Source: Azoarcus sp. L1K30
GTDB lineage: Bacteria > Pseudomonadota > Gammaproteobacteria > Burkholderiales > Rhodocyclaceae
NCBI RefSeq assembly: GCF_018122735.1
Contig: NZ_JAGRRD010000001.1
Span: 2,807,199-2,871,198, forward strand
Direction: 5' to 3'
Length of the DNA: 64,000 nt
Shown here: one piece after another, positions 4,741-27,082 of the stretch
Layout of the letters: each line of letters starts with the position of its first letter
Numbering within the stretch: the stretch's first letter is position 1
The notes under the pieces: model-generated
Told to the model about the DNA's origin: nothing
The model's input: the letters and a program-made list of their open reading frames with translations, nothing else
The model's database searches: none
Program-made: the position numbers and the translations under genes

Positions 4741-5349
4741 TTATGCGTATAGATGCTGGGGTGATACCGTGCCGCCACCGAGCTCGTGCGCGATGTCGTG
4801 AAGCGTTTCAAACACATACCGGCCATAGCTGCCGTCACACCAGATGCGATAGATCAGCCCTTGCGCGGTCTGCTCCAGCAGCACCGTCACACCGACGCCG
4901 ATCAGGCTGGTGAGCACCACCGGACGATCTGCGAGGTTCAGGGCCGCGAAATTCACGTTGCAGGTCTGGCGCAGCAGTTCATTCACCCGCGCACCGCCCA
5001 GCATCAGCGCCGCATCCTCGCGCTGAACCGGATACACCCCGGCGGCCCGCGGCGTCGTGGTGAGACGCTCGACCACCGCTGCATCGCCCTCGATCAGAAA
5101 TTCGGTCATGCCCAGGCGGGCGATCCGGCCGCGTTCACCGAGCGGCAACCAGCTGTTGAATTTCTCCGGCACCGGCACGTCGAGGCTGTCGAGCCAGGCG
5201 ACCGTGCCCGGCCCCTTGCAACCGCAGCGCACCTCCAGCGACACATCGGCAATGCCGAGCACTGCGGCGGCCTCGGCCTGCCGCACCGCATCGGTCAGCA
5301 ATTCGGCGACGATCTCCGCCACCGGGCTGCTTGCAAGCGCCTGACTCAT
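4741..5349 (-). CDS. mgdD: N-methylglutamate dehydrogenase subunit D / sarcosine oxidase gamma-like
   Basis: The 202-residue protein matches the small gamma subunit (SoxG type) of heterotetrameric sarcosine-oxidase-like enzymes. The cues are CGCKGPGTVAWL, the segment RIARLGMTEFLIEG, and the C-terminal GVTVLLEQTAQGLIYRIWCDGSYGRYV. The family subunit stabilises the complex with the folate-binding alpha subunit. Its start codon overlaps the mgdC stop by 4 bp (ATGA), indicating coupled translation. Confidence 0.86.
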   Translation of the reverse strand: MSQALASSPVAEIVAELLTDAVRQAEAAAVLGIADVSLEVRCGCKGPGTVAWLDSLDVPVPEKFNSWLPLGERGRIARLGMTEFLIEGDAAVVERLTTTPRAAGVYPVQREDAALMLGGARVNELLRQTCNVNFAALNLADRPVVLTSLIGVGVTVLLEQTAQGLIYRIWCDGSYGRYVFETLHDIAHELGGGTVSPQHLYA

Positions 5350-8515: not shown

Positions 8516-9757
8516 TCAGTGGCCGACCGACGCCGCACCCTTTTCACCGGTCAGCGCGTAGTGGCTGAAACGGTCGAGGGAGAAGCCGGTGATCAGGGGG
8601 TGCGGTGTGTCATTGACGAGGGTGTGGGCCATGGTCTTGCCGCACACTGGCGTGGCCTTGAAGCCCCAGGTACCCCAGCCGGAATCGAGGTAGAAGCCTT
8701 CCACCGGCGTCTTGCCCATGATCGGCGCGAAGTCCGGCGTCATGTCGGCCATGCCGGCCCACTGCCGCATCACCTTCACGTTGGACAGGAAGGGGAACAT
8801 GTCGAGCATGTGCGAGGTGAGGCCCTCGACGAAGTCCAGGGTCGAGCGCGTCGCATGCAGCTCGTACGGGTCGAGCGAGGCACCCATCACCAGTTCGCCG
8901 CGTGCAGACTGGCTGATGTACACGTGCAGGCTGCCGGAGACCAGGATCGGGTCGAGCCAGGGCTTGACCGGCTCGCTGACCATGGCCTGCAGCGGATGGA
9001 TGTAGATCGGCGTGCGCACGTCGACCATCTTCAGGATGCGCGGCGTCGACCCGGCGACCGCACACAGCACCTTGTTGGTGGAGATGTAGCCGCGCGAGGT
9101 ATTGACTCCCTTCACCTTTCCGCCCTGAACGTCGATGCCAAGCACTTCGGTCTGCTGGTGGATTTCCACCCCGCGCTGATCGGCACCGCGGCCGTAGCCC
9201 CAGGCCACCGCGTCGTGACGCGCCACGGAACCCGGCGCGTGATAGAGCGCACCGAGGATGGGTGCATGACCGGCACACGAAAGATCGATCATCGGCGCGG
9301 CTTCCTTCACCGCTTCGGGTCCGACGACTTCGGAATCGACGCCGTAATGCTTGTTGACCTCGGCGCGCCAGCGCATGGTGCGCACAGCCGCATCCGTGTG
9401 TGCCAGCGTGAAGTGGCCGCGGTTGGCGTAGAACAGGTTGAGGTCGAAGTCGCGCGACAGGTCCTGCCACAGATTGACCGACTCGTCGTAGAACTTCACG
9501 CCCTCGGGGGTGAGGTAGTTGGAGCGGATGATGGTCGTGTTGCGACCGGTATTGCCGCCGCCGATATAGCCCTTCTCCAGCACGCACACGTTCTTGACGC
9601 CGTGCTCGGCGGCCAGGTAGTAGGCCGCGGCCAGACCATGGCCGCCGGCACCGATGATGACGACGTCGTAGCTCGACTTGAGTTTGTCGTGGTGGGTGAA
9701 CATCCGGGGCTCCGGATGCTTCCTGTTCAGGGCAAAGCGTAATAGACGCCAGGGCAT
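8516..9757 (-). CDS. mgdA: N-methylglutamate dehydrogenase subunit A / sarcosine oxidase beta-like
   Basis: The 413-residue FAD protein has the dinucleotide motif VIIGAGGHGLAAAYYLA (about 33-49), the covalent-flavin-region pattern GGGNTGRNTTIIRSNY, and a C-terminal GWGTWGFKATPVCGKTMAH. It is the amine-oxidising subunit (SoxB type). In the N-methylglutamate pathway it oxidises N-methylglutamate to glutamate. A sarcosine oxidase is the main alternative; the neighbouring gmaS and mgsABC favour N-methylglutamate. The gene starts 9 bp after the purU stop. Confidence 0.9.
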   Translation of the reverse strand: MPWRLLRFALNRKHPEPRMFTHHDKLKSSYDVVIIGAGGHGLAAAYYLAAEHGVKNVCVLEKGYIGGGNTGRNTTIIRSNYLTPEGVKFYDESVNLWQDLSRDFDLNLFYANRGHFTLAHTDAAVRTMRWRAEVNKHYGVDSEVVGPEAVKEAAPMIDLSCAGHAPILGALYHAPGSVARHDAVAWGYGRGADQRGVEIHQQTEVLGIDVQGGKVKGVNTSRGYISTNKVLCAVAGSTPRILKMVDVRTPIYIHPLQAMVSEPVKPWLDPILVSGSLHVYISQSARGELVMGASLDPYELHATRSTLDFVEGLTSHMLDMFPFLSNVKVMRQWAGMADMTPDFAPIMGKTPVEGFYLDSGWGTWGFKATPVCGKTMAHTLVNDTPHPLITGFSLDRFSHYALTGEKGAASVGH

Positions 9758-13409: not shown

Positions 13410-13705
13410 GCACTAAAACATCGCACGCCGAGTGGTTTTGCACCAATATGGACTGCGCTCAGCCGCAGCATTGGCCACCGTGTTCGCCTGGAAGCAAGGC
13501 ACAGGGGATTCGAAGGCGCTCCTCGCAGGCTGGCCGCCACCAGCACCGGGAAGCAGCGCGTCGACACCAGGCATGCGCGCACGTCTCAAGATCCGATCTT
13601 TCGCACTGAAAGCAGAACGAAAGCCGGTTCTCCTATCGTTTGCTGCACGTGCCGGCGTTCAGCGTCCGGATACGCCAAGAGATTCCAGAACGGAGGAGAC
13701 CTGAA

Positions 13706-14677
13706 ATGTTCAACAAGACCCTGCTCGTCATCGCCACCACCTTTGCGCTCGGCAGCGCCCATGCCGCGGCACCGGAGAAGCCCGAGTGCATCGCGCCGGC
13801 CAAGCCCGGCGGCGGATTTGATCTCACCTGCAAGCTCGTCCAGGGCGGATTGCAGAACGGCAAGTACATCGATGCGCCGATGCGCGTGACCTACATGCCG
13901 GGCGGCATCGGCGCGGTGGCCTACAACACGGTGATCGCGCAGCGCCCCGACGAAGGCGGCACCATCGTCGCGTTTTCCGGTGGTTCGCTGCTGAATCTGG
14001 CGATCGGCAAGTTCGGCCGATATACGGTCAACGACGTCAAGTGGCTGGCCACTGCCGGCGCTGATTACGGCGCCATCATCGTGCGCGCCGATTCGCCGTT
14101 CAAGGACCTGAAGGAGCTGATGGCGGCGATCAAGGCCGACCCCACCAAGGTCGTGTTCGGTGCCGGCGGTTCCGTCGGCAGCCAGGACTGGATGAAATCG
14201 GCATTGGTTGCCAAGGCTGCCGGCATCGACTTCAAGAGCATGCGCTACGTCGCCTTCGAAGGTGGCGGCGAGGCCATGACCGCGCTGCAGGGCGGGCACG
14301 TACAGGTCTATTCGGGTGACGCCTCGGAAGTGTCCGCCCACATGAAGGGCGGCCGCGTGCGCGTGCTGGGCGTGCTCGCCGCCGAGCGCCTGCCGGGCGA
14401 ACTGAACGCCATCCCCACCGCCAAGGAGCAGGGCTACGACGTCGAGTGGCCGATCATTCGCGGCTATTACATGGGACCGAAGGTCGCCGACGCCGATTAC
14501 AAGTGGTGGCTGGGGACCTTCGACAAGATGCTGCCCTCGCCCGAGTTCGCCAAGCTGCGTGAAGCCCAGGGACTGTTCCCCTTCAACCTGACCGGCGACA
14601 AGCTCGACGCCTACGTGAAGGAGCGCGTGAAGCACTACGCCGAGCTGGCCACCGAATTCGGCATGGTCGCCCAGTAA
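13706..14677 (+). CDS. tctC: TctC-type solute-binding protein of a tripartite tricarboxylate transporter
   Basis: The 323-residue periplasmic protein has a signal peptide (MFNKTLLVIATTFALGSAHA) and the family layout ECIAPAKPGGGFDLTCKL, YMPGGIGAVAYN, DPTKVVFGAGGSVGSQDW, KGGRVRVLGVLAAERLPG. It captures a carboxylate for TctBA. ATG at 13706 follows CGGAGGAG. The exact ligand cannot be read from the sequence; citrate or another di/tricarboxylate is typical of the family. Confidence 0.9.
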   Translation: MFNKTLLVIATTFALGSAHAAAPEKPECIAPAKPGGGFDLTCKLVQGGLQNGKYIDAPMRVTYMPGGIGAVAYNTVIAQRPDEGGTIVAFSGGSLLNLAIGKFGRYTVNDVKWLATAGADYGAIIVRADSPFKDLKELMAAIKADPTKVVFGAGGSVGSQDWMKSALVAKAAGIDFKSMRYVAFEGGGEAMTALQGGHVQVYSGDASEVSAHMKGGRVRVLGVLAAERLPGELNAIPTAKEQGYDVEWPIIRGYYMGPKVADADYKWWLGTFDKMLPSPEFAKLREAQGLFPFNLTGDKLDAYVKERVKHYAELATEFGMVAQ

Positions 14678-14770
14678 TTTCGTCTGGTCCGGACGCGTCG
14701 GCCACGGCGGCGCCGCGAATGCGGCGCGACACGGCCGACGCTGCTCCCTCACCCACGACTGGAGAGAATC

Positions 14771-15214
14771 ATGAGCGAACGCGTCTTTGGCGTCTTCCTA
14801 CTGCTGCTTGCTGCGGGCGGCATCTACTTCGGTTGGGACCTGCGGGCCCCGATCTCCTACGAACCGGTCGGCCCGCGCGCGTTCCCGCTGCTGGTGTTCT
14901 CGCTGCTGGGCATCTGCGCAATCGGACTCATTGCCACCCGGCGCCCCCCCACCGAATGGGCACCATCACCGGTGTTGATGCGCATTGGCGCCATGTTCCT
15001 GGTCGTTCTGGCCTATGCGCTGTTGTTCGACAAACTCGGTTTCGTGATCTCGACCGCGCTGATGTCGATTCCGCTGGCCCGCTTCTTCGGCGGCACGTGG
15101 AAGCAGGCCGCGATCGGCGGCACCGGCCTCGGTATCGCATTGTTCGTGATGTTCGATCGCGTGCTCGACGTCGCCCTGCCCACGGGCTTCTGGCTCAAGC
15201 CACTTCTGGGGTAA
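14771..15214 (+). CDS. tctB: TctB small permease subunit
   Basis: The 147-residue membrane protein has four predicted segments (about 7-25, 40-60, 76-110, 118-135) and the family feature YEPVGPRAFPLLVF near residue 35. It is the small integral subunit of the tripartite tricarboxylate transporter. Start supported by GGAGAGA. It lies 93 bp after tctC and 3 bp before tctA. Confidence 0.88.
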   Translation: MSERVFGVFLLLLAAGGIYFGWDLRAPISYEPVGPRAFPLLVFSLLGICAIGLIATRRPPTEWAPSPVLMRIGAMFLVVLAYALLFDKLGFVISTALMSIPLARFFGGTWKQAAIGGTGLGIALFVMFDRVLDVALPTGFWLKPLLG

Positions 15215-15217
15215 GCC

Positions 15218-16726
15218 ATGGAAATCATCTCTCATCTGCTCGACGGCTTTGCCGTCGCCGGCACCCCCACCAACCTGCTGATCTGCCTGATCGGTGCCTT
15301 CCTCGGCACCATCATCGGCATGCTGCCTGGGTTGGGTCCGATCAACGGGGTCGCGATCCTGCTGCCCATCGCCTATGCGATGAAGCTGCCACCGGAGTCC
15401 GCCCTCATCCTGCTTGCAGCGGTCTATTCCGGCTGCGAGTTCGGCGGCCGTATCTCGGCCATCCTGATCAACGTACCCGGCGACGCCGGTGCGGTCATGA
15501 CCACGCTCGACGGCTACCCGATGGCCAAGAAGGGGCTGGCCGGCCCCGCACTGTCGATCTCGGCGGTCGCCTCGTTTACCGGCGCCATCATCGCCACCGT
15601 CGGCATCGTCGCCTTTGCGCCGCTGCTGGCCAACTGGGCACTGGCATTCGGTCCGGCCGAGTACTTTGCACTGATGGTGCTGGCCCTGTCCTGCCTCGGC
15701 GGACTGGTCGGCGACTCACTGCTCAAGGCGGCGATCGGCATGCTGATCGGCCTGGTCATCGCCTGCGTCGGCATCGATGCCAACAGTGGCGTGTATCGCT
15801 ACACCTTCGACCTGCTTCATCTGTCGGACGGCATTCCCTTCATCGTGGTGGTGATCGGCCTGTTTGCCGTCAGCGAGCTGATGCTGATGCTGCAGGGTCA
15901 CCATGGCGGCGTGCAGGCGGTGGAGGTTACCGGGCGCACGATGTTCAACTCGGCGGAGTTCCTGCGCGCGAAATGGACCATGCTGCGCTCCGCGGTCGTG
16001 GGCTTCTTCGTCGGTGTGCTGCCGGGCGCGGGCGCCTCGATCGCGTCGGCGATGACCTACTCGATGGAGCGCCGCCTCGCAGGCAAGGACCACTGCTTTG
16101 GCGAAGGCGACGTGCGCGGCGTGGCCGCGCCGGAAGCGGCCAACAACGCCTCCGCCTACGGTTCGCTGATTCCGATGCTGACCCTCGGCGTACCGGGCTC
16201 GGGCACCACCGCGGTAATGATCGGTGCGCTCACGCTGTACAACATCACGCCGGGTCCGACCCTGTTCCAGGACCAGCCGGTGATCGTGTGGGGCCTGATC
16301 GCATCGCTTGCCATCTGCAGCGTGATGCTGGTGCTGATGAACATCCCGATGATCAAGCTCTTCGTGAAGTTCCTGCAGATCCCGAACTGGATCCTGGTGC
16401 CGGGTGTCGCCGCAGTGTCGATGGTCGGGGTGTATGCCGTGCATGGGACCACCTTCGACCTCATCGTCGGCACGCTGCTGGGCGGGTTCGGCTACCTGCT
16501 CAGGGTGATGAACTTTCCCATGGCACCGTTCATCCTCGGCTTCGTGCTCGGAGACATGATGGAGCAGAATCTGCGCCGCGCGCTGTCGATCAGCAATGGC
16601 GAACTGGGCATCCTGTTTTCGAGCCCGATCTCGATCGGCTTGTGGATTGCCGCCATTGCGATGCTGGTGGGGCCCCGCGTGTTCAAGGCCATCGACGCCC
16701 ATCGTCGCCAGCACGCAATGGCATGA
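15218..16726 (+). CDS. tctA: TctA large permease subunit
   Basis: The 502-residue membrane protein has about 11-12 segments and the conserved family signatures GTIIGMLPGLGPINGVAILLP (the highly conserved N-terminal glycine motif), YSGCEFGGRISAILINVPGD, FFVGVLPGAGASIASAMTYS and EAANNASAYGSLIPMLTLGVPGSGTTA. It forms the transport channel. It ends the tct operon just before a perfect hairpin terminator. Confidence 0.95.
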   Translation: MEIISHLLDGFAVAGTPTNLLICLIGAFLGTIIGMLPGLGPINGVAILLPIAYAMKLPPESALILLAAVYSGCEFGGRISAILINVPGDAGAVMTTLDGYPMAKKGLAGPALSISAVASFTGAIIATVGIVAFAPLLANWALAFGPAEYFALMVLALSCLGGLVGDSLLKAAIGMLIGLVIACVGIDANSGVYRYTFDLLHLSDGIPFIVVVIGLFAVSELMLMLQGHHGGVQAVEVTGRTMFNSAEFLRAKWTMLRSAVVGFFVGVLPGAGASIASAMTYSMERRLAGKDHCFGEGDVRGVAAPEAANNASAYGSLIPMLTLGVPGSGTTAVMIGALTLYNITPGPTLFQDQPVIVWGLIASLAICSVMLVLMNIPMIKLFVKFLQIPNWILVPGVAAVSMVGVYAVHGTTFDLIVGTLLGGFGYLLRVMNFPMAPFILGFVLGDMMEQNLRRALSISNGELGILFSSPISIGLWIAAIAMLVGPRVFKAIDAHRRQHAMA

Positions 16727-16817
16727 TGTCCGGCTCGGGCGGCGGACCTCCTCCCCGTATCCGCCCGGCCTGATGTGGCGCCCTCCGGAAATTGCGCCGG
16801 CGGCGATACATCCACCT

Positions 16818-16845
16818 GCAGGGCGCCCCGGCGCCCTGCTTTTTT
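16818..16845 (+). terminator. Intrinsic terminator after tctA
   Basis: A perfect 10-bp stem GCAGGGCGCC / GGCGCCCTGC with a two-base C loop is followed by six T. It lies between convergent tctA and tctE; its T run reaches the tctE stop codon (16844-16846). Confidence 0.9.
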
Positions 16846-18247
16846 ATTCCGGCGCCCGGCGCGCCCGCGGAAACTCCACCAGCACGGTCAGCCCGCAGCC
16901 ATCCGTACCCTCGTCGAGGGAAATGCTGCCACCGTGGGCAAGTACGATCTCGCGTACGATCGCCAGACCAAGTCCGCTACCCGAGGCCTTGTCCTGCCCG
17001 AGGATGCGATAGAAGCGCTGGAACACCTTGTCCCTTTCGGACGGCGGAATTCCCGGTCCCTGGTCACTCACGCACAAGGCCACCCGCTCTCCGGTCGCAC
17101 CACTGGCGATGACCACCTGGGTATTGGCAGGGCTGTAGCGGATCGCGTTGTCGAGCAGATTGGCCGTCAGTTCGCGCAGCATCTGCAGGTTGCCATCGAC
17201 GTGGGCTTCACCACCATCCTCGAAGGCCAGCTCGATACCCTTGTTCAGCGCCACCGGCGCCAGTTCGAGCGCCACCTCCCTGGCCAGGCGGCTGATGTCG
17301 ACGCGCTCCTGCGACTGCATCAGCAATTCGGCCGATTCCGCATGCGACAGCGCCAACATCTGGTCGGCCATCCTGCGCGTACTGCGCAAGGTGCCGAGCA
17401 GGCTCTTGAAGGTATGCCGGACCTCCTGCAGATCGCTCAGGCGCTGGCCGTACTCGGCCTGGGTACTGAGCACCGCCAGCGGGGTACGGATCTGGTGTGC
17501 GGCATCTGCAAGAAAGCGCCGCCGCGCCGCATGCATGCGTGACAGACGTTCGGTGTGATGGTTGATTGCATCGATCAGCGGCCTGACCTCGGTCGGGACG
17601 TCGGTGGCGGTGATGGGCGTCAGGTCCTCCTCGTCGCGGGTACGAATGGCCTCGCGCAGCGCCAGCAGCGGACGAAAGGCCGAGGTCAGCGCCATCGCCA
17701 ATACCACGGCGCCCAGCGCGACCAGCAGAAACTGCCTCTTCAGACTGTCGAAAAACAGCTCCTTTGCCAATTCGAGCCGCGACTCCGTCGTCTCGGCGAA
17801 CACGATCGTTGCCGCATCCCCCCCGTTCAACGCGGGGTCGTAGAGACGTTTGCGGACCGCCCCCACGCGCACGCTGAAGTTGCGGTAGATGCTATCAACG
17901 ATCTGCGGCGGCTGGTCGTCGGCCAGCCCGGACGGCGGCACGAGATCACCGTACCCCGTCACCAGAACGCCATCGGGCCCGATCACCGCATAGAACAGGC
18001 GCTCCTGCATGTTCGACTCGAATACGTCGAAGGCCGAATACGGCATGTCCACCGAGATATTGCCCTCGAGCGAATGCACGCGCTCTGCGATTGCACTGAT
18101 GGACGCGGTGAGCGAACGGTCGTAGGCACGGTTTACCGCCGTGAGCGCGCCGTAATATGACAGCACCGCATTGATCAGCAGCAACGCGAGCAGCGAGGGC
18201 AGCAGCCAGGTCGCAAACCGGCGCCGCAGGCTGACGTCACGCGTCAT
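16844..18247 (-). CDS. tctE: Sensor histidine kinase TctE
   Basis: The 467-residue inner-membrane kinase has two membrane segments (about 13-32 and 172-192) enclosing a periplasmic sensor region. The H box has His251 in FLADAAHQIRTPLAVLS, with an N box LLDNAIRYS and ATP-lid motifs DQGPGIPPSERDKVFQRFYR and GSGLGLAIV. It phosphorylates TctD. Its start overlaps the tctD stop by 4 bp. Induction of tctCBA by its substrate is the expected role. Confidence 0.92.
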   Translation of the reverse strand: MTRDVSLRRRFATWLLPSLLALLLINAVLSYYGALTAVNRAYDRSLTASISAIAERVHSLEGNISVDMPYSAFDVFESNMQERLFYAVIGPDGVLVTGYGDLVPPSGLADDQPPQIVDSIYRNFSVRVGAVRKRLYDPALNGGDAATIVFAETTESRLELAKELFFDSLKRQFLLVALGAVVLAMALTSAFRPLLALREAIRTRDEEDLTPITATDVPTEVRPLIDAINHHTERLSRMHAARRRFLADAAHQIRTPLAVLSTQAEYGQRLSDLQEVRHTFKSLLGTLRSTRRMADQMLALSHAESAELLMQSQERVDISRLAREVALELAPVALNKGIELAFEDGGEAHVDGNLQMLRELTANLLDNAIRYSPANTQVVIASGATGERVALCVSDQGPGIPPSERDKVFQRFYRILGQDKASGSGLGLAIVREIVLAHGGSISLDEGTDGCGLTVLVEFPRARRAPE

Positions 18248-18918
18248 CCAGCGGCTTCGCTCAACAGGTAGCCCAGGCCTCGCAAGGTCGTCACCACCGC
18301 GCCCGAACCATCGAGCTTCTTGCGCAGACGATGCACATAAATCTCGATGGCCTCGGCGCGCGCCTCCTCGTCGAAGGCAAACACTTTCTCGAACAGGGTT
18401 TCACGCGCCACCGGCCGCCCCTGGCGGGAAATCAGCACTTCCAGCACGGCAAGCTCACGCGGCGTCAGTGCCAGCGGCTTGCCATCCACCCTTGCCAGCC
18501 TGGAGCCGGTGTCGAATTCGAGCCGGCCGATACGGACCACGGGCACCAGATTGCCGGCACGACGCAGCAAGGCCTTGATCCGGGCCTCGAGCTCCGAGAG
18601 ATCGAAGGGCTTGGGCAGATAGTCGTCCGCCCCCAGATTGAGGCCACGCACCCGATCTTCGGTGCTGCCACGCGCCGTCAGCACGAGGACCGGCGTATGC
18701 GCCGTCGTCTCGCGGGCGCGCATGCGCTTGAGCACCTCGAGACCGTCGAGCCCCGGCAGCGACAGGTCGAGCACCACCACATCGTAGGGCTGGGTCAGCA
18801 GTGCATGATCCGCGTGATCGCCACGGCTCATGACATCGACCGCATAACCGGCATGGTTCAGGGCTTTCGACACCCACTCGGCCAGGTCCGCATGGTCTTC
18901 CACGAGCAACAGGCGCAT
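18244..18918 (-). CDS. tctD: Response regulator TctD (OmpR/PhoB family)
   Basis: The 224-residue protein has a receiver domain (EDHADLAEW; phosphoacceptor Asp51 in VVLDLSLPGLDG; Lys in DYLPKPFDL) and a C-terminal winged-helix domain (LTPRELAVLEVLISRQGRPV, IYVHRLRKKLDGSGA). It is the DNA-binding partner of TctE and is divergent from the periplasmic binding protein gene at 19012. Confidence 0.93.
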   Translation of the reverse strand: MRLLLVEDHADLAEWVSKALNHAGYAVDVMSRGDHADHALLTQPYDVVVLDLSLPGLDGLEVLKRMRARETTAHTPVLVLTARGSTEDRVRGLNLGADDYLPKPFDLSELEARIKALLRRAGNLVPVVRIGRLEFDTGSRLARVDGKPLALTPRELAVLEVLISRQGRPVARETLFEKVFAFDEEARAEAIEIYVHRLRKKLDGSGAVVTTLRGLGYLLSEAAG

Positions 18919-19011
18919 AAGAATGAAAGTGGATCGAAAGGTTGTTGGTCAATTATCCTGCCGCAAAACGCCTGCCGAGCAAAGCACCCCGCATCCGACT
19001 GGAGCATTCCA

Positions 19012-20103
19012 TTGCGTATCCTGACCTGCCGTATCGGTCGCCTCGTCGCCCTGATGTGCGCGCTGGCGACTGCCACTACGGCCGCAGGTGCCGAATTCGT
19101 CTCGGATCAGCACGAGGCCGCCGTGCGCGAAGGCACGGTGGTGATCTATGCTGCGACCGACGAAGTCGTCGCCCGCGAACTCGTACTCGATTTCGAGCGC
19201 CGCTACCCGGGCGTCAGGATCGACTACCGTGACATGGCCTCGTCCGACCTGTACCGGCGCATTGTCGCCGAAGCGCCCGAGGGCGGTGTCGCGGATGTGG
19301 TGTGGAGCTCGGCCATGGACCTGCAGGTGAAGCTGGTCAATGACGGTTACGCCCAGGCGCACCGTTCGGAGCAGACCGCGGCGCTGCCGAAGTGGGCGAT
19401 CTGGAAGGACGAAGCCTTCGGCACCAGCTTCGAGCCCGTGGCAATCGTATACAACAACAAACTGCTGCCGGCCGATCTTGTGCCGCGAAGCCACGCCGAA
19501 CTGCTGCGTCTGCTGGCTCACCCGCCCACACGGATGCGGGGCAAGCTGATCACCTACGATCCCGCGCGCTCGGGCCTCGGCTATCTGTTGCACAGCCAGG
19601 ATGTACTGGCCAACCCGGTGGTGTTCTGGCGCCTGGCCGAGGCGTTTGCCCGCACGGGCATCCAGACTGAACCTTCCACCGCCGACATGCTCGACCGCAT
19701 ATCCTCGGGAAACGCCCTGCTGGGCTACAACCTGCTCGGTTCGTACGCCGCACTTCGCGCGGCCCGGGATCCCGTATTGAGCATCGTCCTGCCCCGTGAC
19801 TACACGCTGGTCATGAGCCGGGTAGCGTTCATCTCGCGTCAGGCGCGCCATCCGAACGGCGCGCGCCTGTGGCTCGACTATCTGCTGTCCCCGAGCGGCC
19901 AGCGCCTGCTGTCGAAAAATGCCGGGTTCTACTCCGTGCGCGCCGACGTCCCCGCCGAGTCCGCGGCAGGCGACCTCCAGCAGCAACTCGGCGCGGCCTT
20001 CCGGCCCATTCATATCGGCGCAGGCCTGCTGACCTACCTCGACCAACTCAAGGCACGCGATTTCCTGCGCCAATGGCAAGACACCATTGCCCCGCCGCCA
20101 TGA
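19012..20103 (+). CDS. Periplasmic ABC-type (Fe3+/AfuA-like) substrate-binding protein, possible sensor accessory
   Basis: The 363-residue protein has a signal peptide ending ATTAAGA and a binding-protein body: GTVVIYAATDEVVARELVLD, YPGVRIDYRDM, ADVVWSSAMDLQVKL, GTSFEPVAIVYNN, GARLWLDYLLSPSGQ. No ATG begins it. TTG at 19012 with GGAG seven bases upstream gives the signal peptide. No ABC permease or ATPase is adjacent. It is divergent from tctDE, so it may feed a signal to TctE, as PgtC is thought to do for its regulatory system. That role is inferred. Confidence 0.85.
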   Translation: MRILTCRIGRLVALMCALATATTAAGAEFVSDQHEAAVREGTVVIYAATDEVVARELVLDFERRYPGVRIDYRDMASSDLYRRIVAEAPEGGVADVVWSSAMDLQVKLVNDGYAQAHRSEQTAALPKWAIWKDEAFGTSFEPVAIVYNNKLLPADLVPRSHAELLRLLAHPPTRMRGKLITYDPARSGLGYLLHSQDVLANPVVFWRLAEAFARTGIQTEPSTADMLDRISSGNALLGYNLLGSYAALRAARDPVLSIVLPRDYTLVMSRVAFISRQARHPNGARLWLDYLLSPSGQRLLSKNAGFYSVRADVPAESAAGDLQQQLGAAFRPIHIGAGLLTYLDQLKARDFLRQWQDTIAPPP

Positions 20104-21197
20104 AAGTCGGACCCGATCAACAACAGGCCGAGTGTATGTCCCCTGATCCTGCGGGCGCGAATCGATTGGGCAACATCGCCCTCGTTCTCGTCACCCTTGC
20201 GATCGGTGGCGCGGCCGGCGCTGCCGCCCTGAGCATTCGCAGCCCCCTGCCGTGGATGCTCGGGCCGCTATTCGGTGTCGCCTTGCTGCGCGTGCTCGGC
20301 GCCCCGCTGATGCCGGCGCCGGGTGGCCGGCATGCAGGACAATGGGCCATCGGCACCGCGCTCGGCCTCTATTTCACCCCGGCCGTGCTGAGCCTGCTCC
20401 AGGCAAACCTGATGCTGGTCAGCCTGATTGCCGGCGGCGCCCTGATCGTGGGCCTGCTGTGCGCCGTGCTCACGCTGCGTCTGGCGAAGGTAGACAAACC
20501 GACAGCGTTCTTCGCCGCCCTGCCCGGCGGCGCATCGGAAATGGCCGTGCTGGCGGAACGCTTCGGCGGTGCCGTCGACCGCATTGCCGCCGCGCACGCG
20601 CTCAGGGTCATGCTGGTGGTGGCCATCGTCCCCCTCGGGCTGAACTGGTCGGGCGCGCACGGTAGCGACCTCTATCAACCGCTGGCCGCCACCGTCGTGC
20701 CCTCGCAACTGCCGGCCCTTGTCGCCGCCAGCCTGGGTGGCGGCTTGCTGCTCACCGCACTGCGCATCGGCAACGCATGGGTGCTGGGCCCCTTGTTCGG
20801 GGTCGGCATCCTGACCGGGCTGGGTCTCAGCCTGTCTGCACTGCCAGGGTGGGTGGTCAATGGCGGGCAGTTGCTCATCGGGTGTTCGCTCGGCTGCCGC
20901 TTCTCGCCCACGTTCTTCCGCGCCGCGCCACGCTTTCTGGCGACAGCAGCCGTGTCAGCGCTGTTCGCCGTCGCCCTAGGATGCGTGCTGGCCCTGCTCG
21001 CAGCCAGTGCGTCAGACACGCCACTGGCAACACTCGTCCTCGCTGCCGCGCCTGGCGGCGTCGCCGAAATGTGCATTACCGCCAAGGTCCTCCAGCTCGG
21101 CGTGCCGCTGGTGACCGTGACCCACGTACTCAGGGTCGTCGTGCTCACCCTCGGCGCCCCCTTCCTGTACCGGGTCTTTCTCCGCCTGCCCGACTGA
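20100..21197 (+). CDS. AbrB-family integral membrane protein
   Basis: The 365-residue protein contains about nine to ten membrane segments in two similar halves. Each half carries a LPWMLGPLFGVALL-type motif: SPLPWMLGPLFGV near residue 49 and GNAWVLGPLFGVGIL near 225. FFAALPGGASEMAVLAERFGG and LAAAPGGVAEMCITAK are the paired PGGxxEM motifs of the AbrB (putative ammonia-monooxygenase-like) family. ATG at 20100 overlaps the preceding stop (ATGA); another ATG lies at 20136. Transport substrate unknown. Confidence 0.85.
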   Translation: MKVGPDQQQAECMSPDPAGANRLGNIALVLVTLAIGGAAGAAALSIRSPLPWMLGPLFGVALLRVLGAPLMPAPGGRHAGQWAIGTALGLYFTPAVLSLLQANLMLVSLIAGGALIVGLLCAVLTLRLAKVDKPTAFFAALPGGASEMAVLAERFGGAVDRIAAAHALRVMLVVAIVPLGLNWSGAHGSDLYQPLAATVVPSQLPALVAASLGGGLLLTALRIGNAWVLGPLFGVGILTGLGLSLSALPGWVVNGGQLLIGCSLGCRFSPTFFRAAPRFLATAAVSALFAVALGCVLALLAASASDTPLATLVLAAAPGGVAEMCITAKVLQLGVPLVTVTHVLRVVVLTLGAPFLYRVFLRLPD

Positions 21198-21297
21198 GCG
21201 CTGCCACGCAGCGCGACCCGAGCCGTGCTTCAGCCAGCGTTAATACTTGCCGTATACTCTTGCGGCCCACTGGCCCTGCGCGCAACGAGGCGCGTGA

Positions 21298-21319
21298 CCG
21301 CACAGCCGGCGCTGTGCGG
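21298..21319. other. Hairpin ahead of the gene at 21344
   Basis: A perfect 9-bp stem (CCGCACAGC / GCTGTGCGG) closes on CGGC. It follows a TATACT element (21253-21258) and precedes GAGAGGA. It has no T run, so it may be a 5' leader structure or a weak terminator for the AbrB-family gene. Confidence 0.35.
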
Positions 21320-21343
21320 CTTGCTCGATGGAGAGGATCTTCC

Positions 21344-22108
21344 GTGAACAGAGGTTTACTGGCGCTGGGCCTGACCCTCGTTGCCAACGCCATGCCGGCT
21401 GCGGCCGGCGACTGGAGCATGATCTACGGGCTGGACTATTCGAGCGGAAAATACGGCGGATCGCGCACGTCCGAAACCTGGTATCTGCCCATCATTGGCA
21501 AATACGAAGACCACGCGATGACCTACAAGGTCACCCTCCCCTACCTCAGGACAACGGGACCGGGCGGGGTGTCGGTCGGCCCCGACCTGACACCGCTGCC
21601 CGGCACCGGGACCAGCCGAAGAACCGAAAGCGGTCTGGGAGACGTCGTACTCAGTGCATCATGGACCGCACTCGATGGCGCTGACGGCGGACTGCTGCTC
21701 GATGTCGTGACCAAGCTCAAGCTGCCCACCGGTGACGAAAAGCGCGGCCTCAGCACTGGTGAAGCCGACGTCGCACTCCAGGTCGATGTCGCCCACCGCT
21801 TCGGGCCGGTCACGGGTTTCGGCACGCTCGGCTGGAAGAAATTCGGCGACCCGCCCGGCAGCGATTTCCGCAACCCGGTCTACACCTCGCTCGGTCTGGC
21901 CTCCCGCCTCAATCCCGGCCTGACAGCCGGCATCTCCTATGACTGGCGGCAGAAGATCATCAAGCACGGAGCCGAAACCAGTGAAGCCACGCTCTTCCTG
22001 AGCCAGAGGCTGAGCGCATCGACGAAGATCCAGCTCTATCTGATCAACGGCTTTTCCGACGCCAGCCCCGACCGGGGGGGCGGACTGATGCTGAACCAGA
22101 CGTTCTGA
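21344..22108 (+). CDS. Outer-membrane beta-barrel-type protein of unknown function (transporter-like)
   Basis: The 254-residue exported protein has a signal peptide (LLALGLTLVANAMPAAAG). Its body is built of alternating polar/aromatic strands (WSMIYGLDYSSGKYGG, TWYLPIIGKYED, MTYKVTLPYLRT, LLLDVVTKLKLPTGDEKRGLSTG), and it ends in phenylalanine (LMLNQTF), which is the outer-membrane insertion signature. GTG at 21344 is chosen for its GAGAGGA site. It resembles the loosely defined outer-membrane transporter/alginate-like barrel families. No specific function can be assigned. Confidence 0.7.
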   Translation: MNRGLLALGLTLVANAMPAAAGDWSMIYGLDYSSGKYGGSRTSETWYLPIIGKYEDHAMTYKVTLPYLRTTGPGGVSVGPDLTPLPGTGTSRRTESGLGDVVLSASWTALDGADGGLLLDVVTKLKLPTGDEKRGLSTGEADVALQVDVAHRFGPVTGFGTLGWKKFGDPPGSDFRNPVYTSLGLASRLNPGLTAGISYDWRQKIIKHGAETSEATLFLSQRLSASTKIQLYLINGFSDASPDRGGGLMLNQTF

Positions 22109-22145
22109 TCAAGCCGCACGCATCGGGCGCGCGATCACTGTCTGC

Positions 22146-23987
22146 TCAGTGCCGCTCGAGCCTTTCCGCACGTTCGGGCGCTTCCACCTTTTCGGCCTTC
22201 TCCGGCCGTTCGACTTTCTCGACTGACTCCGGCCGCTCCACTTTCTCGACGCGCGCCACCCTGTCCATGCTTTCGGGGCGCTCGGCCTTTTCGACCCGCT
22301 CCACCTTCTCCACGGCTTCGGGGCGTTCGACACGCTCGACTTTCTCGACCCGCTCGACCTTTTCCACCGATTCGGGGCGCTCCACTCTTTCCACCCGCTC
22401 CACCTTTTCCGCGGTTTCCGGACGTTCGACGCGCTCGACTTTCTCGACGCGCTCGACCTTTTCAACCGATTCGGGGCGCTCCACTCTTTCCACCCGTTCC
22501 ACCTTTTCCGTGGCTTCCGGGCGCTCGACGCGCTCGACTTTCTCGACGCGCTCGACCTTCTCGATCGAATCGGGCCGCTCCACTTTTTCCACCTTCTCGA
22601 CCCGTTCGACCTTTTCCACCCTTTCGGCGCGCTCGACCCGCTCCACGACATCGCCGCGTTCAAGCCTGTCGATCCGTGCCGAAAGCGCTTCAGCATCGGC
22701 GTCCTGTGTGGCGTCGAGTCCAGTTGTTGTCCCCGCGACGCCGGCGGATGAATTGCCAGCAGCCACGTCGGCCGATCCTTCGCCGGTGCCGGCCGTCCCG
22801 TCCGACACCTCGACGCCCCCATCCTGAACCGTCCCACCGAGGCCGGACTCAAGCTCCTTCCCGTTATCCTTGCGACGCTCGCCGGGCATCTGCCTTTCCT
22901 GCTGCGGTCGCGTCTCGAGCACGTCGATGCGATCCGCAATCACGGATCGACCGCCATCGAGACGCCCGGTCACCCGCACCCGGGTGTCGACGCTGAAGCG
23001 GCTCGCATCGGCCTGCGCCACGGAACCGCCCTTCACCCGGACGTCGAAACCGCCCACCTTGAGAGCCTGATTCCCGGCGCCCTGGACAAGCCCCTCGATC
23101 ACGGCCCTCGCTGCCGCGCCCCTGAAGGGCAATCCCGGATCCGCACGCGTCGCCGCAACCTCCATGACCCCGCCGTTCCAGCGTCCACTGACGAGGACGT
23201 TGCCGGCACCCGGGCGCGCCAAGGACGGTCCGCCCCGCAGCGGCAGACCGGTGCCCGGTCCCTGTCGTCCCACGCCGACAATCGCGCTATCGCCTCGGCC
23301 TGCAGGCGCCGGATCGAGGCGGGATGCGCGCACTGCGCCCGCAGCGGTCACCAGGCCGCTGACGGACACCCGCATTCCCGGGCGCAGGTCGACACCGATC
23401 AGGGTGTCGCGCGACAGCAGCACCGCCTGGCCCATGACACGGATCACCCCCCGGGCAAGATCCACGTCGGTCACCGGGCCCTCGTAGGCGTGCAGCACAT
23501 CGATCCGGCGCGCTTCGAGTCCGCGTCGACCGCTGTAGGCCTCGATCGCCACCACCTGCCCGACTGCCAGCTCGCCCAGCCCCGCAGGCTGGTCATTGAC
23601 CGCCACCGGCGTGCCGTTGTCATAGAAGACCTCGAGCCCATTGACGCATACCGACGCAAATCCGGTAATGGTGCCCACGATGCCGGTGCCACCGATGCCA
23701 TCCTCGCCCGCCAGCGGCGCGCCCGTTCCTCCGACGCCTCCCGGCATCTGCGGCGCGCCGGTACCCCCCAATCCGCCGTCGTTAAGGGGCGCACCGGTGC
23801 CACCGATTCCCCCCTCCCGCTGCGGCGCGCCCGTACCCCCGATTCCGCCATGGTTTGCCTGCGCCCCTGTTCCGCCGATGCCGCCCGGATCCACGCAGGC
23901 CGGCTGCGACCACGCCGACACGGACGCGATGGCGGGCAAGGCCGCCATCAGGAAACGCGCTAGGAATGATCGCCAGTCAGACAGCAT
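22146..23987 (-). CDS. DUF5666-type exported protein with GGxGGTGAP repeats and a long VE[RK] repeat tail
   Basis: The 613-residue protein has four parts: a signal peptide (about 1-28); five 12-residue repeats GGIGGTGAPxxx (35-102); a central region of repeated DUF5666-like beta modules (about 105-360; GQVVAIEAYSGRRGLEARRIDVL, LRPGMRVSVSGLVTA, DTRVRVTGRLDGGRSVIADRIDVL); and a highly charged tail of about 167 residues made of VER/VEK tripeptides broken by RPE. ATG at 23987 is preferred (AGGA nine bases upstream) over a TTG at 23993 that overlaps the preceding stop. Function unknown; it looks like a surface or periplasmic protein with a rigid helical tail. Confidence 0.75.
   Translation of the reverse strand: MLSDWRSFLARFLMAALPAIASVSAWSQPACVDPGGIGGTGAQANHGGIGGTGAPQREGGIGGTGAPLNDGGLGGTGAPQMPGGVGGTGAPLAGEDGIGGTGIVGTITGFASVCVNGLEVFYDNGTPVAVNDQPAGLGELAVGQVVAIEAYSGRRGLEARRIDVLHAYEGPVTDVDLARGVIRVMGQAVLLSRDTLIGVDLRPGMRVSVSGLVTAAGAVRASRLDPAPAGRGDSAIVGVGRQGPGTGLPLRGGPSLARPGAGNVLVSGRWNGGVMEVAATRADPGLPFRGAAARAVIEGLVQGAGNQALKVGGFDVRVKGGSVAQADASRFSVDTRVRVTGRLDGGRSVIADRIDVLETRPQQERQMPGERRKDNGKELESGLGGTVQDGGVEVSDGTAGTGEGSADVAAGNSSAGVAGTTTGLDATQDADAEALSARIDRLERGDVVERVERAERVEKVERVEKVEKVERPDSIEKVERVEKVERVERPEATEKVERVERVERPESVEKVERVEKVERVERPETAEKVERVERVERPESVEKVERVEKVERVERPEAVEKVERVEKAERPESMDRVARVEKVERPESVEKVERPEKAEKVEAPERAERLERH
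22149..22649 (-). repeat. Tandem coding repeats of about 99 bp in the VE[RK] tail
   Basis: The unit encodes 33 residues (a 15-residue RPE..EKVERVERVE block plus an 18-residue RPESVEKVERVEKVERVE block). Equivalent bases GATTCGGG recur at 22369 and 22468, exactly 99 bp apart. Shorter 9- and 15-residue variants follow at the C-terminal end. Such arrays vary in copy number by slippage. Confidence 0.85.
23682..23885 (-). repeat. Tandem 36-bp coding repeats (GGxGGTGAP)
   Basis: Five consecutive 12-residue units starting GGIGGTGAQ, GGIGGTGAP, GGIGGTGAP, GGLGGTGAP, GGVGGTGAP and a final partial GIGGTG are encoded here, directly after the signal peptide of the DUF5666-type protein. Confidence 0.85.
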
Positions 23988-23989
23988 GC

Positions 23990-24823
23990 TCAATCTTCCT
24001 GTTTGCCGTCAGCGGGTTCGGTATAGCAGTAGAGCCCCACCGTGATGCGGTGTCTATCGACCAAGGTCGCTGCATCGCGCTGCTCGAGCTCCATCGCCAG
24101 ACGGTTGAACGAGATCAGGGTTTCCATGCCCAATTCACCCACACGCTCAGAGATCTGCGCAACACTCTCCTTGCTGAGCGCGTCGTAGTGCACCGCGCGT
24201 TCAAAGAAGGGGGTGCCCTCGCCGACCAGGTTATGTACCGCGGCGGCGGCGTGGTCATGGACGTTATGCCCGAAATAGGCGACCTTTTCCTCGAAGCCTT
24301 TCTGCGGAATGAATGCATTGACGTTGAGGACCACATTGTCCTGCTCGTCGAGGCTGACGACGCCCAGACGCAACCATTCATCCAGCACGACTCTGGGCCG
24401 CACATCCCTCACGACATTCCCCACCAAAGACTCGAACGACAATTCGCCACCATAGCGCGCATGCCGCGGCAAGGGGCGCGGCCGTAACGCCTCGTCACAA
24501 TAGGGAGGGACATTGGCCCACGTTGCAACCAGTCGGGCGCCGTAAGACACGGCCTCCGGCAGGGCCAGGGTCGCGCAATTTCCTGCCGCGCGAATGCGCT
24601 TGACGTCTTTCCGGTGCACACCGCTGATCAGGCTCAGCCGACTGTCGGATTGTCGCTTTCCATCGATCGGAAAATCGTGCTCGGCAACATCGATGAATAC
24701 ATCCTTCAGCAACTCGGAAAAATAGCCGTAGCTGACGCCCTTGGCGAGCAGCAGACGCACGATGGGCCGCATCACTTGGCGCAGGGCATGGACGAGAGCG
24801 GAGGACGGATCGGTACTGGCCAT
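23990..24823 (-). CDS. DUF6502 family protein
   Basis: The 277-residue, apparently cytoplasmic protein matches the DUF6502 pattern: MRPIVRLLLAKGVSYGYFSELLKDVFIDVA, SRLSLISGVHRKDVKRIR (helix-turn-helix-like), and a C-terminal region with HNVHDHAAAAVHNL. The N-terminal part looks like a winged-helix DNA-binding fold, so a regulator is possible. It sits directly upstream of the repeat protein and ends 2 bp before that protein's ATG, so the pair is likely coexpressed. Function unknown. Confidence 0.75.
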   Translation of the reverse strand: MASTDPSSALVHALRQVMRPIVRLLLAKGVSYGYFSELLKDVFIDVAEHDFPIDGKRQSDSRLSLISGVHRKDVKRIRAAGNCATLALPEAVSYGARLVATWANVPPYCDEALRPRPLPRHARYGGELSFESLVGNVVRDVRPRVVLDEWLRLGVVSLDEQDNVVLNVNAFIPQKGFEEKVAYFGHNVHDHAAAAVHNLVGEGTPFFERAVHYDALSKESVAQISERVGELGMETLISFNRLAMELEQRDAATLVDRHRITVGLYCYTEPADGKQED

Positions 24824-24855
24824 TCAACGGAAAAGCGGCAAAGCTGACTTGGGGA

Positions 24856-24895
24856 AAAAGCGCCGACAGCCCCTCCCCGCAAGAGAAGGGGGCTG
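24856..24895 (-). terminator. Terminator after psiE
   Basis: On the minus strand CAGCCCCC pairs with GGGGCTG across a loop of about 14 nt and is followed, after CGGCG, by five T (24856-24860). It separates psiE (ends 24961) from the downstream DUF6502 gene. Confidence 0.55.
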
Positions 24896-24960
24896 CCAAA
24901 ACAGCATGTTTGCCCAATGATACCCGTTGTGCCGCGCACGCCGGCATTGATTACGCGCCT

Positions 24961-25425
24961 TTACTCCGACTTCAGCGACACCAGCCAGTAGGTGATGCCG
25001 AGGGCCAGCACAATCACGCCGATCGCATACAGGTAGGATGGTTCGAGCACGCTGAGGTCGAGCACGATGACTTTCCGAGCAATGGCCATCAGCGCCGTCG
25101 CCAGGACCAGCTTCACATGGATGACGTCATCACGCAGGTAGAGCGTAATGTTGGCGAAGATCTCGATTGCGATCAGCACCGCGAGAAAAGCCGCAAAGAC
25201 GACGAAGATGTCGTTCAGTTCCAGCAGCATGACCGGCGGTTCCGACAGCTTTTCATACAGCACGAGCACGACGTCCGCCACGCACCACAGAATGACGGCG
25301 ACCATCAGCACCGCCAGCAACCGTATTGCCTGGCGGATCACCCAGTGCAGGCCGTCGATCAGTGGATCCTCATTTCTGGCGGACAGATGGTTGTCACACT
25401 CCGTCGCGGGCAGTTCTGGCCTCAT
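24961..25425 (-). CDS. PsiE-family membrane protein
   Basis: The 154-residue protein has four predicted membrane segments (about 32-52, 70-92, 103-118, 130-148), with LLELNDIFVVFAAFLAVLIAIEIFANI and YLRDDVIHVKLVLATALMAIARKVIVLD as the characteristic PsiE (phosphate-starvation-inducible E) core. Role not established in the family. Start taken at ATG 25425. Confidence 0.85.
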   Translation of the reverse strand: MRPELPATECDNHLSARNEDPLIDGLHWVIRQAIRLLAVLMVAVILWCVADVVLVLYEKLSEPPVMLLELNDIFVVFAAFLAVLIAIEIFANITLYLRDDVIHVKLVLATALMAIARKVIVLDLSVLEPSYLYAIGVIVLALGITYWLVSLKSE

Positions 25426-25494
25426 GGGGCTCGATTCCTCGATCTGGTCGTGGCGGCCGGGAAGGCCCGGCCGCCATGGGGCAGGGCAGGATGC

Positions 25495-25917
25495 TCAGCC
25501 GCTGCGCCTTTCCTGCAAGCGGCTGCTCGCCTGCGCATTGGTCCACACGGCAGCCGCGTGCGACAGCAAGGCGGCCTCTTCCTCGGTTCGAACGCCATCC
25601 GCATGAACGATGTCGTCCATGGCCTTCAGGATCAGGGTCTGGAACGCCGGATCCTGGATCTCTTCCAGCAATAACCTCAATACGTCCGGCGCCAGGCGCA
25701 GGGCAATGCCATCGAGATACTCGGCACCCTGCAGCAGATCCTGGCAGTATGCCTGCAGCACGCCCTCGAACGCGTGCTCGTCGATCTTGAGGCGTTCGAC
25801 GGCTTCGGACCGGGACAGTGACTCGAGTTCGGTCCGGTCCAGCCCTCCATCCGCGAGAATGGTGAGCGCAAGAATCCGCGCAGCAGCCTGGGCACTGTTG
25901 GTTGCATATTGACGCAT
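25495..25917 (-). CDS. TerB-like protein
   Basis: The 140-residue acidic helical protein (MRQYATNSAQAAARILALTILADGGLDRTELESL ...; later MDDIVHADGVRTEEEAALLSHAAAVW) shows the two repeated ADG(x)ExE calcium/metal-type loops of TerB/tellurite-resistance domains. The ATG at 25917 follows AAGGAGGA; the open frame continues upstream to 26073 but without such a site. It lies 69 bp upstream of psiE on the same strand. Function unknown. Confidence 0.75.
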   Translation of the reverse strand: MRQYATNSAQAAARILALTILADGGLDRTELESLSRSEAVERLKIDEHAFEGVLQAYCQDLLQGAEYLDGIALRLAPDVLRLLLEEIQDPAFQTLILKAMDDIVHADGVRTEEEAALLSHAAAVWTNAQASSRLQERRSG

Positions 25918-26048
25918 GCTTCGTCCTCCTTGATCGGTATTCACCCCGCGTCGCCGCACCCGAAGCTTCCGGGACGGCAGCGCACTCGATGCGCGGTCAG
26001 GCGACATGCGCTGACCGTGAATCCAGCTTAGAGGAGCGCAACGCGACA

Positions 26049-26086
26049 AAAAAGTCGAATATAGTGTTACCACTCATCGACTTTTT
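26049..26086. promoter_or_regulatory. Perfect 10-bp inverted repeat in the nhaR promoter region
   Basis: AAAAAGTCGA (26049-26058) and TCGACTTTTT (26077-26086) flank 18 bp. A TATAGT -10-like box (26060-26065) lies inside the spacer, and the nhaR ATG follows at 26101. The layout fits an autoregulatory operator over the promoter. Confidence 0.5.
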
Positions 26087-26100
26087 CGAGGAATCGGGCG

Positions 26101-26994
26101 ATGTCGCTGAACTTCAAGCATCTGCGTTATTTCTGGACGGTTGCCAAGGCCGGCAGTGTTGCGCGTGCCGCCAGGCTGCTGCATCTGACGCCGCATGCGA
26201 TCAGTGCCCAGTTGGCGACGCTTGAAACCAGTCTCGGCACTAGCCTTTTCCATCGCGTGGGGCGGCGCCTCGAACTCACCGAAGCGGGTCAGCGCATACT
26301 CGGTCACGCGGACGAGATCTTTGCGCTGGGCGACCGGATCGTCGAGCTGATGCGGGACGAGAACCTGAACATTGCGCAGCCCTTCCGCATCGGGATTGCC
26401 GATTCGATGCCGAAATCGGTGGTCTATCGGCTCATCGAGCCGGCGCTCCAGCTCGACGCCGCGCCGCGCCTGATCTGCCGCGAGGGGCGACTGGAGGGGC
26501 TGCTGGGTGAGCTGGCCGTGCATCGGCTCGACATCGTGCTTGCCGATCGCCCCTTGCCGCCGGGTGTCAGCGTGCGCGGCTACAGTCATCTGCTCGGCGA
26601 CAGCCCACTGTCGGTATTCGCCAGTCCCGCGCTCGCCGCAACCTTGCCGGGCAGCTTTCCGGCCTCGCTCGATCGCGCGCCCTTCCTGCTGCCAGGGGAG
26701 GATGTCGCCCATCGGCCGGCACTCCTGCAGTGGCTGGAGCGCATGGACGTGCATCCGCGAATCGTCGCCGAGTTCGACGACGGCGCCCTGATGAAAGCCT
26801 TCGGCCAAGCCGGCGCGGGGCTCTTCGTCGCCCCCACTGCCATTGCCGCCTACATTTGCGAGCAGTACAAGGTCATTGAACTCGGCAAAATCGACAAGGT
26901 CCGCGAGCAGATCTATGCGATCACGACCGAACGCAAGCTCACCCATCCGGCCATGCTGGCGATCCGCCAGCGCGCACGCGAGGCGATACCGTGA
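26101..26994 (+). CDS. nhaR: NhaR-type LysR-family transcriptional regulator
   Basis: The 297-residue protein has a LysR helix-turn-helix (FKHLRYFWTVAKAGSVARAARLLHLTPHAISAQLATLE, residues 5-42) followed by LGTSLFHRVGRRLELTEAGQ, and an effector domain with RIGIADSMPKSVVYRLIEPAL, typical of NhaR. In enterobacteria NhaR responds to sodium and activates nhaA and pgaABCD; no nhaA is adjacent here. It is divergent from the terB-like gene. Confidence 0.85.
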   Translation: MSLNFKHLRYFWTVAKAGSVARAARLLHLTPHAISAQLATLETSLGTSLFHRVGRRLELTEAGQRILGHADEIFALGDRIVELMRDENLNIAQPFRIGIADSMPKSVVYRLIEPALQLDAAPRLICREGRLEGLLGELAVHRLDIVLADRPLPPGVSVRGYSHLLGDSPLSVFASPALAATLPGSFPASLDRAPFLLPGEDVAHRPALLQWLERMDVHPRIVAEFDDGALMKAFGQAGAGLFVAPTAIAAYICEQYKVIELGKIDKVREQIYAITTERKLTHPAMLAIRQRAREAIP

Positions 26995-27082
26995 CCCGCT
27001 GCGCGCACCGGGCACGACAGCCCGGCCGCCAGTCGGCTAGACTCGGGCTCCCGCATCGCTTTTCGCCAACCCGCCACGCACC

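Follow-up and report, generated by a model that had tools for sequence, protein, structure and literature searches.

The exported repeat protein encoded in the window, meaning the whole 64,000-nucleotide stretch of Azoarcus sp. L1K30 DNA analyzed here, is part of a widespread three-gene cassette that the earlier note on this DNA had overlooked. In the window, the cassette consists of genes for a DUF6502 (HTH-like) protein, a DUF5666 protein with a repeat tail, and a small beta-barrel protein. The same gene set was found in Pseudomonas, in betaproteobacteria, and in two alphaproteobacterial MAGs. The features of the locus are as follows.

21198 to 24963, no strand assigned: whole cassette, absent at the syntenic site of G001 (same genus); boundaries from blastn
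21344 to 22108, plus strand: outer-membrane beta-barrel protein (remote FapF/Phenol_MetA type), GTG start, chosen by eye
22146 to 23987, minus strand: coding sequence of the exported DUF5666 protein, 613 residues plus stop (in-frame pN/pS, orthologs)
22149 to 22649, minus strand: polyampholyte VE[RK] tail, residues 447 to 613
22234 to 22593, minus strand: 99-bp tandem repeat array in the tail, 3.6 copies, 86% matches (TRF, score 503)
22650 to 22907, minus strand: low-complexity linker, residues 361 to 446, with a low-confidence helix from 429 (AlphaFold2)
22908 to 23696, minus strand: predicted folded beta core, residues 98 to 360, DUF5666/OB-like modules with invariant C114
23685 to 23885, minus strand: GGxGGTG repeat linker, residues 35 to 101, predicted disordered almost throughout
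23913 to 23987, minus strand: likely Sec signal peptide, residues 1 to 25 (VSA, then W; cleavage site inferred), followed by conserved Cys31
23990 to 24823, minus strand: DUF6502 gene, putative HTH/winged-helix-like regulator

Distribution of the cassette

A scan of genome contigs recovered at least 61 loci, many of them from Pseudomonas. Tail peptides were among the search patterns; some loci match by the tail alone, and the scan is uninformative on how often the tail occurs. The DUF5666 proteins of other genera share one domain order, from the signal peptide through GGxGGTG, ITGFAS-C-VNG, and the beta core to the VEK tail. Among relatives of the window genome, 11 of 61 match (own genome included, some by tail only); of the five genomes of the genus, only the window's own has a match to the protein. 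Loci L020 to L080 of this tail-biased scan plus the window contained 59 DUF5666 ORFs. DUF6502 lies directly upstream in 57 of these and a barrel gene lies next in 50 (47 co-directional and 3 convergent, including the window), with 6 others cut off by the end of the available sequence and 3 that have no barrel gene. In L063 the DUF5666 gene is broken into two ORFs, both entered in the count, one as lacking DUF6502 and the other as lacking the barrel. In the window, the barrel gene is convergent to the DUF5666 gene, so the two are not in the same transcript there.

A further sample was chosen by DUF6502 rather than by tail. DUF6502 gave 26 hits in 21 of the 121 genomes of the family and none in 14 control genomes, and the neighborhoods of all 26, window included, were inspected. 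As judged by eye, 17 are followed by a DUF5666 gene of the signal peptide type, with a Cys near the start and no lipobox with a Gly run; the barrel gene accompanying these 17 is intact in 13, a remnant in 1 (L098), and absent in 3 (the upstream pair of L095, L096, and L109). In eight other cases the DUF5666 protein is of the lipoprotein type (Cys, then a Gly run), and none of the eight has a barrel gene or a charged tail; the last neighborhood (L088) has no recognizable DUF5666 gene. With 13 barrels among 25 cases, the probability that none falls within the 8 is 4.6e-4 (calculated by hand), a guide only, as the genomes are related. A charged segment of at least 40 residues is present in 10 of the 17 (the window, L087, L090 to L094, the downstream pair of L095, L096, and L109; the tails of L093 to L096 were scored under L052, L002, L039, and L004, respectively) and absent from L086, L089, L097, L098, L099, L103, and the upstream pair of L095. 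In 5 of the 13 cases with an intact barrel gene (L086, L089, L097, L099, and L103), the DUF5666 gene has no such segment, so it is not the tail that ties the DUF5666 protein to the barrel.

In a tree of 59 DUF6502 proteins, the eight lipoprotein-type cases form one group (100/99), and a further lipoprotein case from another family (L009) falls outside it. Nine Pseudomonas rows group with three rows of the window's family (100/99), and the placement of the window branch beside this Pseudomonas group is weakly supported (86/63).

Several loci depart from the common layout. The barrel remnant of L098 (3168 to 3359) lies behind a DUF5666 gene with a weak tail, and tandem DUF6502-DUF5666 pairs occur in L028 and in L039 (the same genome stretch as L095), the upstream copy having no charged tail. 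L112 encodes a relative with a DRDIDRDF tail (5188 to 7116) and a barrel-cluster ORF downstream, with no DUF6502 gene found in the 10 kb of sequence examined. In L066 (5602 to 6570), KLRGDGTIDDTQPGG repeats are joined to a long VERPEK tail, and DUF6502 is absent from the surrounding sequence examined. A short exported protein made almost wholly of [VPA]E[RK] repeats, the tail as a stand-alone protein, lies divergent to the DUF6502-DUF5666 pair in L067 (5827 to 6414). Genome G013 encodes a number of exported repeat proteins with a high content of PERAER, PEK, or RPER (L094, 3563 to 4606; L110, 7689 to 8576; L111, 6231 to 7007), one of them just upstream of its DUF6502 gene. In 27 loci, those listed being from Pseudomonas, an exported protein lies upstream of DUF6502 in which a Gly-rich part precedes GEPGDDHG repeats; examples are L020 (4310 to 5155, GGGGGGH repeats), L031 (4081 to 4953, GGGGGGH repeats), and L033 (4333 to 5010, GGN). 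L033 has a further exported Gly-rich protein past the barrel gene (8692 to 9738); it carries DAAREAAED repeats, and its signal peptide is similar. One candidate relative, L007 (62% identity), was set aside as an antisense artifact, having a long open frame on the opposite strand.

An empty site in a related genome

Alignment of the window with L118 of G001 (blastn) paired 13597 to 21197 with 17061 to 9450 and 24964 to 27011 with 9434 to 7398. About 15 bases separate the two flanks in G001, and only the barrel, DUF5666, and DUF6502 genes (3.77 kb) are missing. Since the convergent barrel gene is missing together with the other two, the cassette appears to be a unit; its absence fits gain or loss alike. 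In G003 and G004 (19.5 kb compared), alignment was limited to portions of the PsiE and LysR regions, and no PsiE match was found in G002. The cassette ends showed no inverted repeats and no direct repeats of at least 14 pairing the two ends, and GC content is 0.650 within the cassette versus 0.647 and 0.641 in the flanks. A scan for signals detected no promoter-like site and two terminator-like sites, versus 2.4 expected.

The DUF6502 gene

The TGA of the DUF6502 gene (23990 to 23992) lies 2 nt ahead of the DUF5666 ATG, with AGGAAG at 23995 to 24000. The protein matches Pfam DUF6502 (PF20112) at 120.2 bits (cut-off, 27), and its model (pLDDT 83.7) contains an HTH-like part (31 to 81) and a winged-helix-like part (87 to 170). 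HetR was its first structural neighbor (Z 7.7, rmsd 10.9 over 220) in a second look that covered the families listed there, as for the DUF5666 core below, and leaves room for unlisted ones. Foldseek against PDB returned no match to the model at an E value of 0.001 or below, no PDB sequence match was better than E 0.5, and DUF6502 was not mentioned in the literature searched.

The exported DUF5666 protein

The DUF5666 gene runs on the minus strand from an ATG at 23987 to a stop codon at 22146 to 22148; the earlier note had the right frame and left the stop codon out of its span. Comparison of repeat copies offset by 99 bp gave a pN/pS of 0.42 for this frame and 1.47, 1.24, 1.13, 0.58, and 1.26 for the other five, so that one antisense frame through the repeats is also below 1 (0.58). 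The low in-frame ratio and an architecture conserved in other genera together suggest that the frame is translated, the earlier note having named an untranslated frame as a refutation, and the same ratio suggests that the amino acid pattern of the tail is kept. A 186-residue antisense open frame crosses the tail repeats on the plus strand (22267 to 22827; STRSTFSTRSTF) and is probably a mere by-product of the repeat.

The modular, exported character that had been proposed for the protein is supported. The signal peptide was called from sequence features and a predicted helix at residues 2 to 24, without a signal peptide predictor; no lipobox was seen after it, and Cys31 is nearly invariant among orthologs. 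Of the five GGxGGTGAP units described earlier, all five GGxGGTG cores were found and AP follows four of them; one DGIGGTG is also present. AlphaFold2, with a model built from 45 sequences, gave pLDDT below 50 and no secondary structure for residues 34 to 97 and pLDDT above 90 in 20 of the 26 ten-residue blocks of residues 101 to 360.

The DUF5666-like beta modules that the earlier note had recognized are likewise upheld, by this predicted beta core and by Pfam. The window protein matches DUF5666 (PF18914) at 51.1 bits (cut-off, 27; E 1.6e-13), with three stretches at an E limit of 1 and one at 0.001, and all 45 aligned members match the family. DUF5666 proteins in general differ from the cassette type, which has the GGxGGTG linker, a Cys pair, no lipobox, and often a charged tail. 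Weaker Pfam candidates were rejected: the LED repeat (PF20854) scored 21.2 bits against a cut-off of 59, and DUF5818 and eIF_4G1 were also under their cut-offs.

CusF was the first structural neighbor of the core (Z 9.2), followed by PilY2 (7.9) and then the OB domains of PriB, SSB, and AspRS; the best PDB profile match lying within the core was CcmE (E 0.038), and Foldseek against PDB gave no match to the model at E 0.001 or below. We read the core as OB-like modules, a likeness judged from modules modeled inside the whole protein (Z up to 9.2, Foldseek E above 0.001). The periplasmic OB folds CusF and CcmE are single-domain proteins with known ligands, whereas the cassette core comprises several modules, and any ligand of it is hypothetical. 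In the portions of the literature consulted, DUF5666 is mentioned only as an entry in lists of genes or families or as a protein with no known function. Like the earlier note, we found no function described for this combination of features in the literature searched.

A variable, charged tail

The 167-residue VE[RK] tail built of 99-bp DNA repeats was recovered as the earlier note had described it. Residues 447 to 613 contain 34 VE[RK] triplets and 44 xE[KR], with E at 52 of 55 positions of one phase and R or K at 46 of 56 positions of another. Its units vary among orthologs, from VEK or PEK to PEIAK/PEIAR (L087), APERIE (L092), VERPEK (L091), and DRDI/DRDF (L005). A charged segment of at least 40 residues was present in 56 of the 67 orthologs scored, most of them from the tail-biased scan, and these segments have a median length of 108 residues (66 to 187) and a net charge per residue of -0.21 to +0.03. 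The change in tail length that had been anticipated from slippage is also seen: the post-core region differs in length in 44 of the closest 45 of 106 ortholog pairs with more than 85% core identity, a comparison that includes the linker; many of the differences, counted in residues, are not divisible by three. L060 and L062, at 96.3% identity, have post-core regions 30 residues apart in length. The DUF5666 tail of L109 contains an assembly gap of Ns across which the frame changes, so draft genomes may contain broken versions of repeat-rich tails.

The stiff helical or coiled rod suggested earlier fared poorly. AlphaFold2, which is weak on low-complexity repeats, predicted low-confidence helices at residues 429 to 445 and 447 to 461 and no secondary structure for residues 462 to 613 (ten-residue mean pLDDT, 34 to 44). 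A helix would suit the window tail, where 78% of acidic residues have K or R at i+4 (26% after shuffling); in the PEIAK-type tail of L087, the figure is 3%, with 17% Pro. Helicity as a conserved tail feature is therefore unlikely, as far as models and charge spacing can tell, and a conserved stiff rod is unlikely because units differ, some orthologs are tail-less, and length varies between near relatives. The earlier note had named predicted disorder combined with a fixed length as evidence against its proposal; nearly the whole tail is predicted disordered, but lengths differ between orthologs. Charges at the window C terminus are better mixed than in shuffles (z -4.0), and some tails, e.g., those of L002, L090, and L064, show no clear advantage over their shuffled versions; this analysis used the best core domain only, so that the core profile stays out of the tails. 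The tail is thus predicted to be a disordered, well-mixed, nearly neutral polyampholyte.

The PEVK segment of titin has been seen as a polyampholyte. In the titin sources partially available to us, that segment is disordered, repetitive, and rich in Pro, Glu, Val, and Lys, as predicted for the cassette tail, which differs in being bacterial, predicted to be exported, and shorter; no homology is claimed. Literature listings on VEK repeats and on polyampholytes and the periplasm contained nothing on this protein. A PDB sequence match to 9e5c (E 3.8e-38), which has VEATEVAE-type repeats, was judged from the alignments to be a match of composition.

The barrel protein is remotely homologous to FapF

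A profile of 30 barrel proteins had FapF, of the Fap functional amyloid system of Pseudomonas, as its first PDB match (E 3.9e-5), and hhalign against five FapF sequences gave 96.1% (E 3.2e-9) over 230 columns, versus 0.3% for a control PF13557 protein (L121, single sequence). In bit scores, two FapF proteins reached 26.7 and 25.5, this control, another PF13557 protein of the same genome, reached 4.1, and shuffled or reversed copies stayed below 0. Against PF13557 (Phenol_MetA_deg) itself, the window barrel scored 16.5 bits, under the cut-off of 22; 10 of the 30 members match at E 0.01, and one of the two FapF proteins scanned, that of L122, exceeds the cut-off. Given this last result and the single-sequence control, the link to FapF may reach a wide barrel superfamily.

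The cassette barrel was rejected as FapF proper, having no coiled coil and scoring far under the equivalog cut-off of 700 bits of NF058560 (NCBIfam FapF). The window member does not match that model at E 0.01, and 1 of the 30 members does, at 25.2 bits. In comparison with FapF, the 254-residue cassette protein is without the N-terminal periplasmic coiled coil and the helical plug region, and the alignment starts at FapF residue 121. The PT[GA] and [GS]TG motifs of the cassette barrel align with the two PTG places of FapF, and low-complexity exported proteins near the barrel are a further Fap-like trait. According to the portion of the FapF report consulted, FapF lets unfolded amyloid substrates out, its nearest structure is the importer Pput2725, and the PTG motif of Pput2725 sits in a region proposed as a lateral gate (PMC5557850). 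Because the nearest structure to FapF is an importer, homology does not fix the direction of transport; direction aside, the alignments support a role for the barrel as an outer-membrane channel.

Possible roles in the cell envelope

We tentatively favor the reading that these genes form a cell envelope cassette in which a DUF6502-regulated, exported OB-fold protein acts with the barrel and carries a tunable polyampholyte tail. DUF6502, with its predicted HTH and winged-helix-like parts and a gene end 2 nt before the DUF5666 start, would regulate the cassette. The DUF5666 protein would leave the cytoplasm by its signal peptide, without a lipid anchor, and fold outside into a row of OB-like modules, its two conserved Cys residues possibly forming a disulfide. 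The tail is predicted to behave as a flexible chain in a swollen state, not as a rod, with a length set by in-frame gain and loss of repeats. Gene linkage and remote homology suggest that the protein acts with the FapF-like barrel, its likeliest role being that of cargo or surface partner; the tail may then act as a hydrated brush or spring on the cell surface or within the matrix. In a bolder version, which we regard as unlikely, the cassette is a novel outer-membrane export system: a FapF-like barrel without a coiled coil exports the DUF5666 protein, the PEVK-like tail serves as surface spring or brush, DUF6502 exerts control, the cassette is gained or lost whole, and the tail is tuned by in-frame repeat number.

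The same parts could be arranged as a periplasmic tether, with the OB modules docked at the barrel and the tail spanning the periplasm to the cell wall or inner membrane, as proposed for the FapF coiled coil. The i+4 charge spacing of the window tail would favor a helix there, but the tail is mostly predicted disordered, its unit, Pro content, and length are too variable for one geometry, some barrel-linked orthologs have no charged tail, and no peptidoglycan-binding family was among the Pfam matches; we consider this arrangement improbable. If, instead, the tail merely solubilizes a periplasmic ligand or metal binder of the CusF/CcmE type, the barrel would import the ligand in a COG4313-like manner. 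This account draws on CusF as first structural neighbor and CcmE as best PDB sequence match of the core, on the upstream Gly-rich exported repeat proteins of 27 loci, several containing His, and on the importer Pput2725 being structurally nearest to FapF in the part of the source consulted. OB folds bind many things, however, and we give this account only a small chance of being right. A smaller chance still attaches to a functionless tail that arose neutrally through repeat slippage. Low complexity, fast turnover, and tail-less orthologs speak for neutrality, yet pN/pS between copies is 0.42, different units keep a similar alternating, nearly neutral charge pattern, and a stand-alone exported polyampholyte lies beside a DUF6502 gene in L067 (5827 to 6414).

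For Pseudomonas and many betaproteobacteria, these results bring forward a common gene set that appears to be without a studied function. Should the tail be a disordered polyampholyte of tunable length on the cell surface, as in the reading we favor, it would offer a bacterial test case in which selection keeps a charge pattern rather than a sequence.
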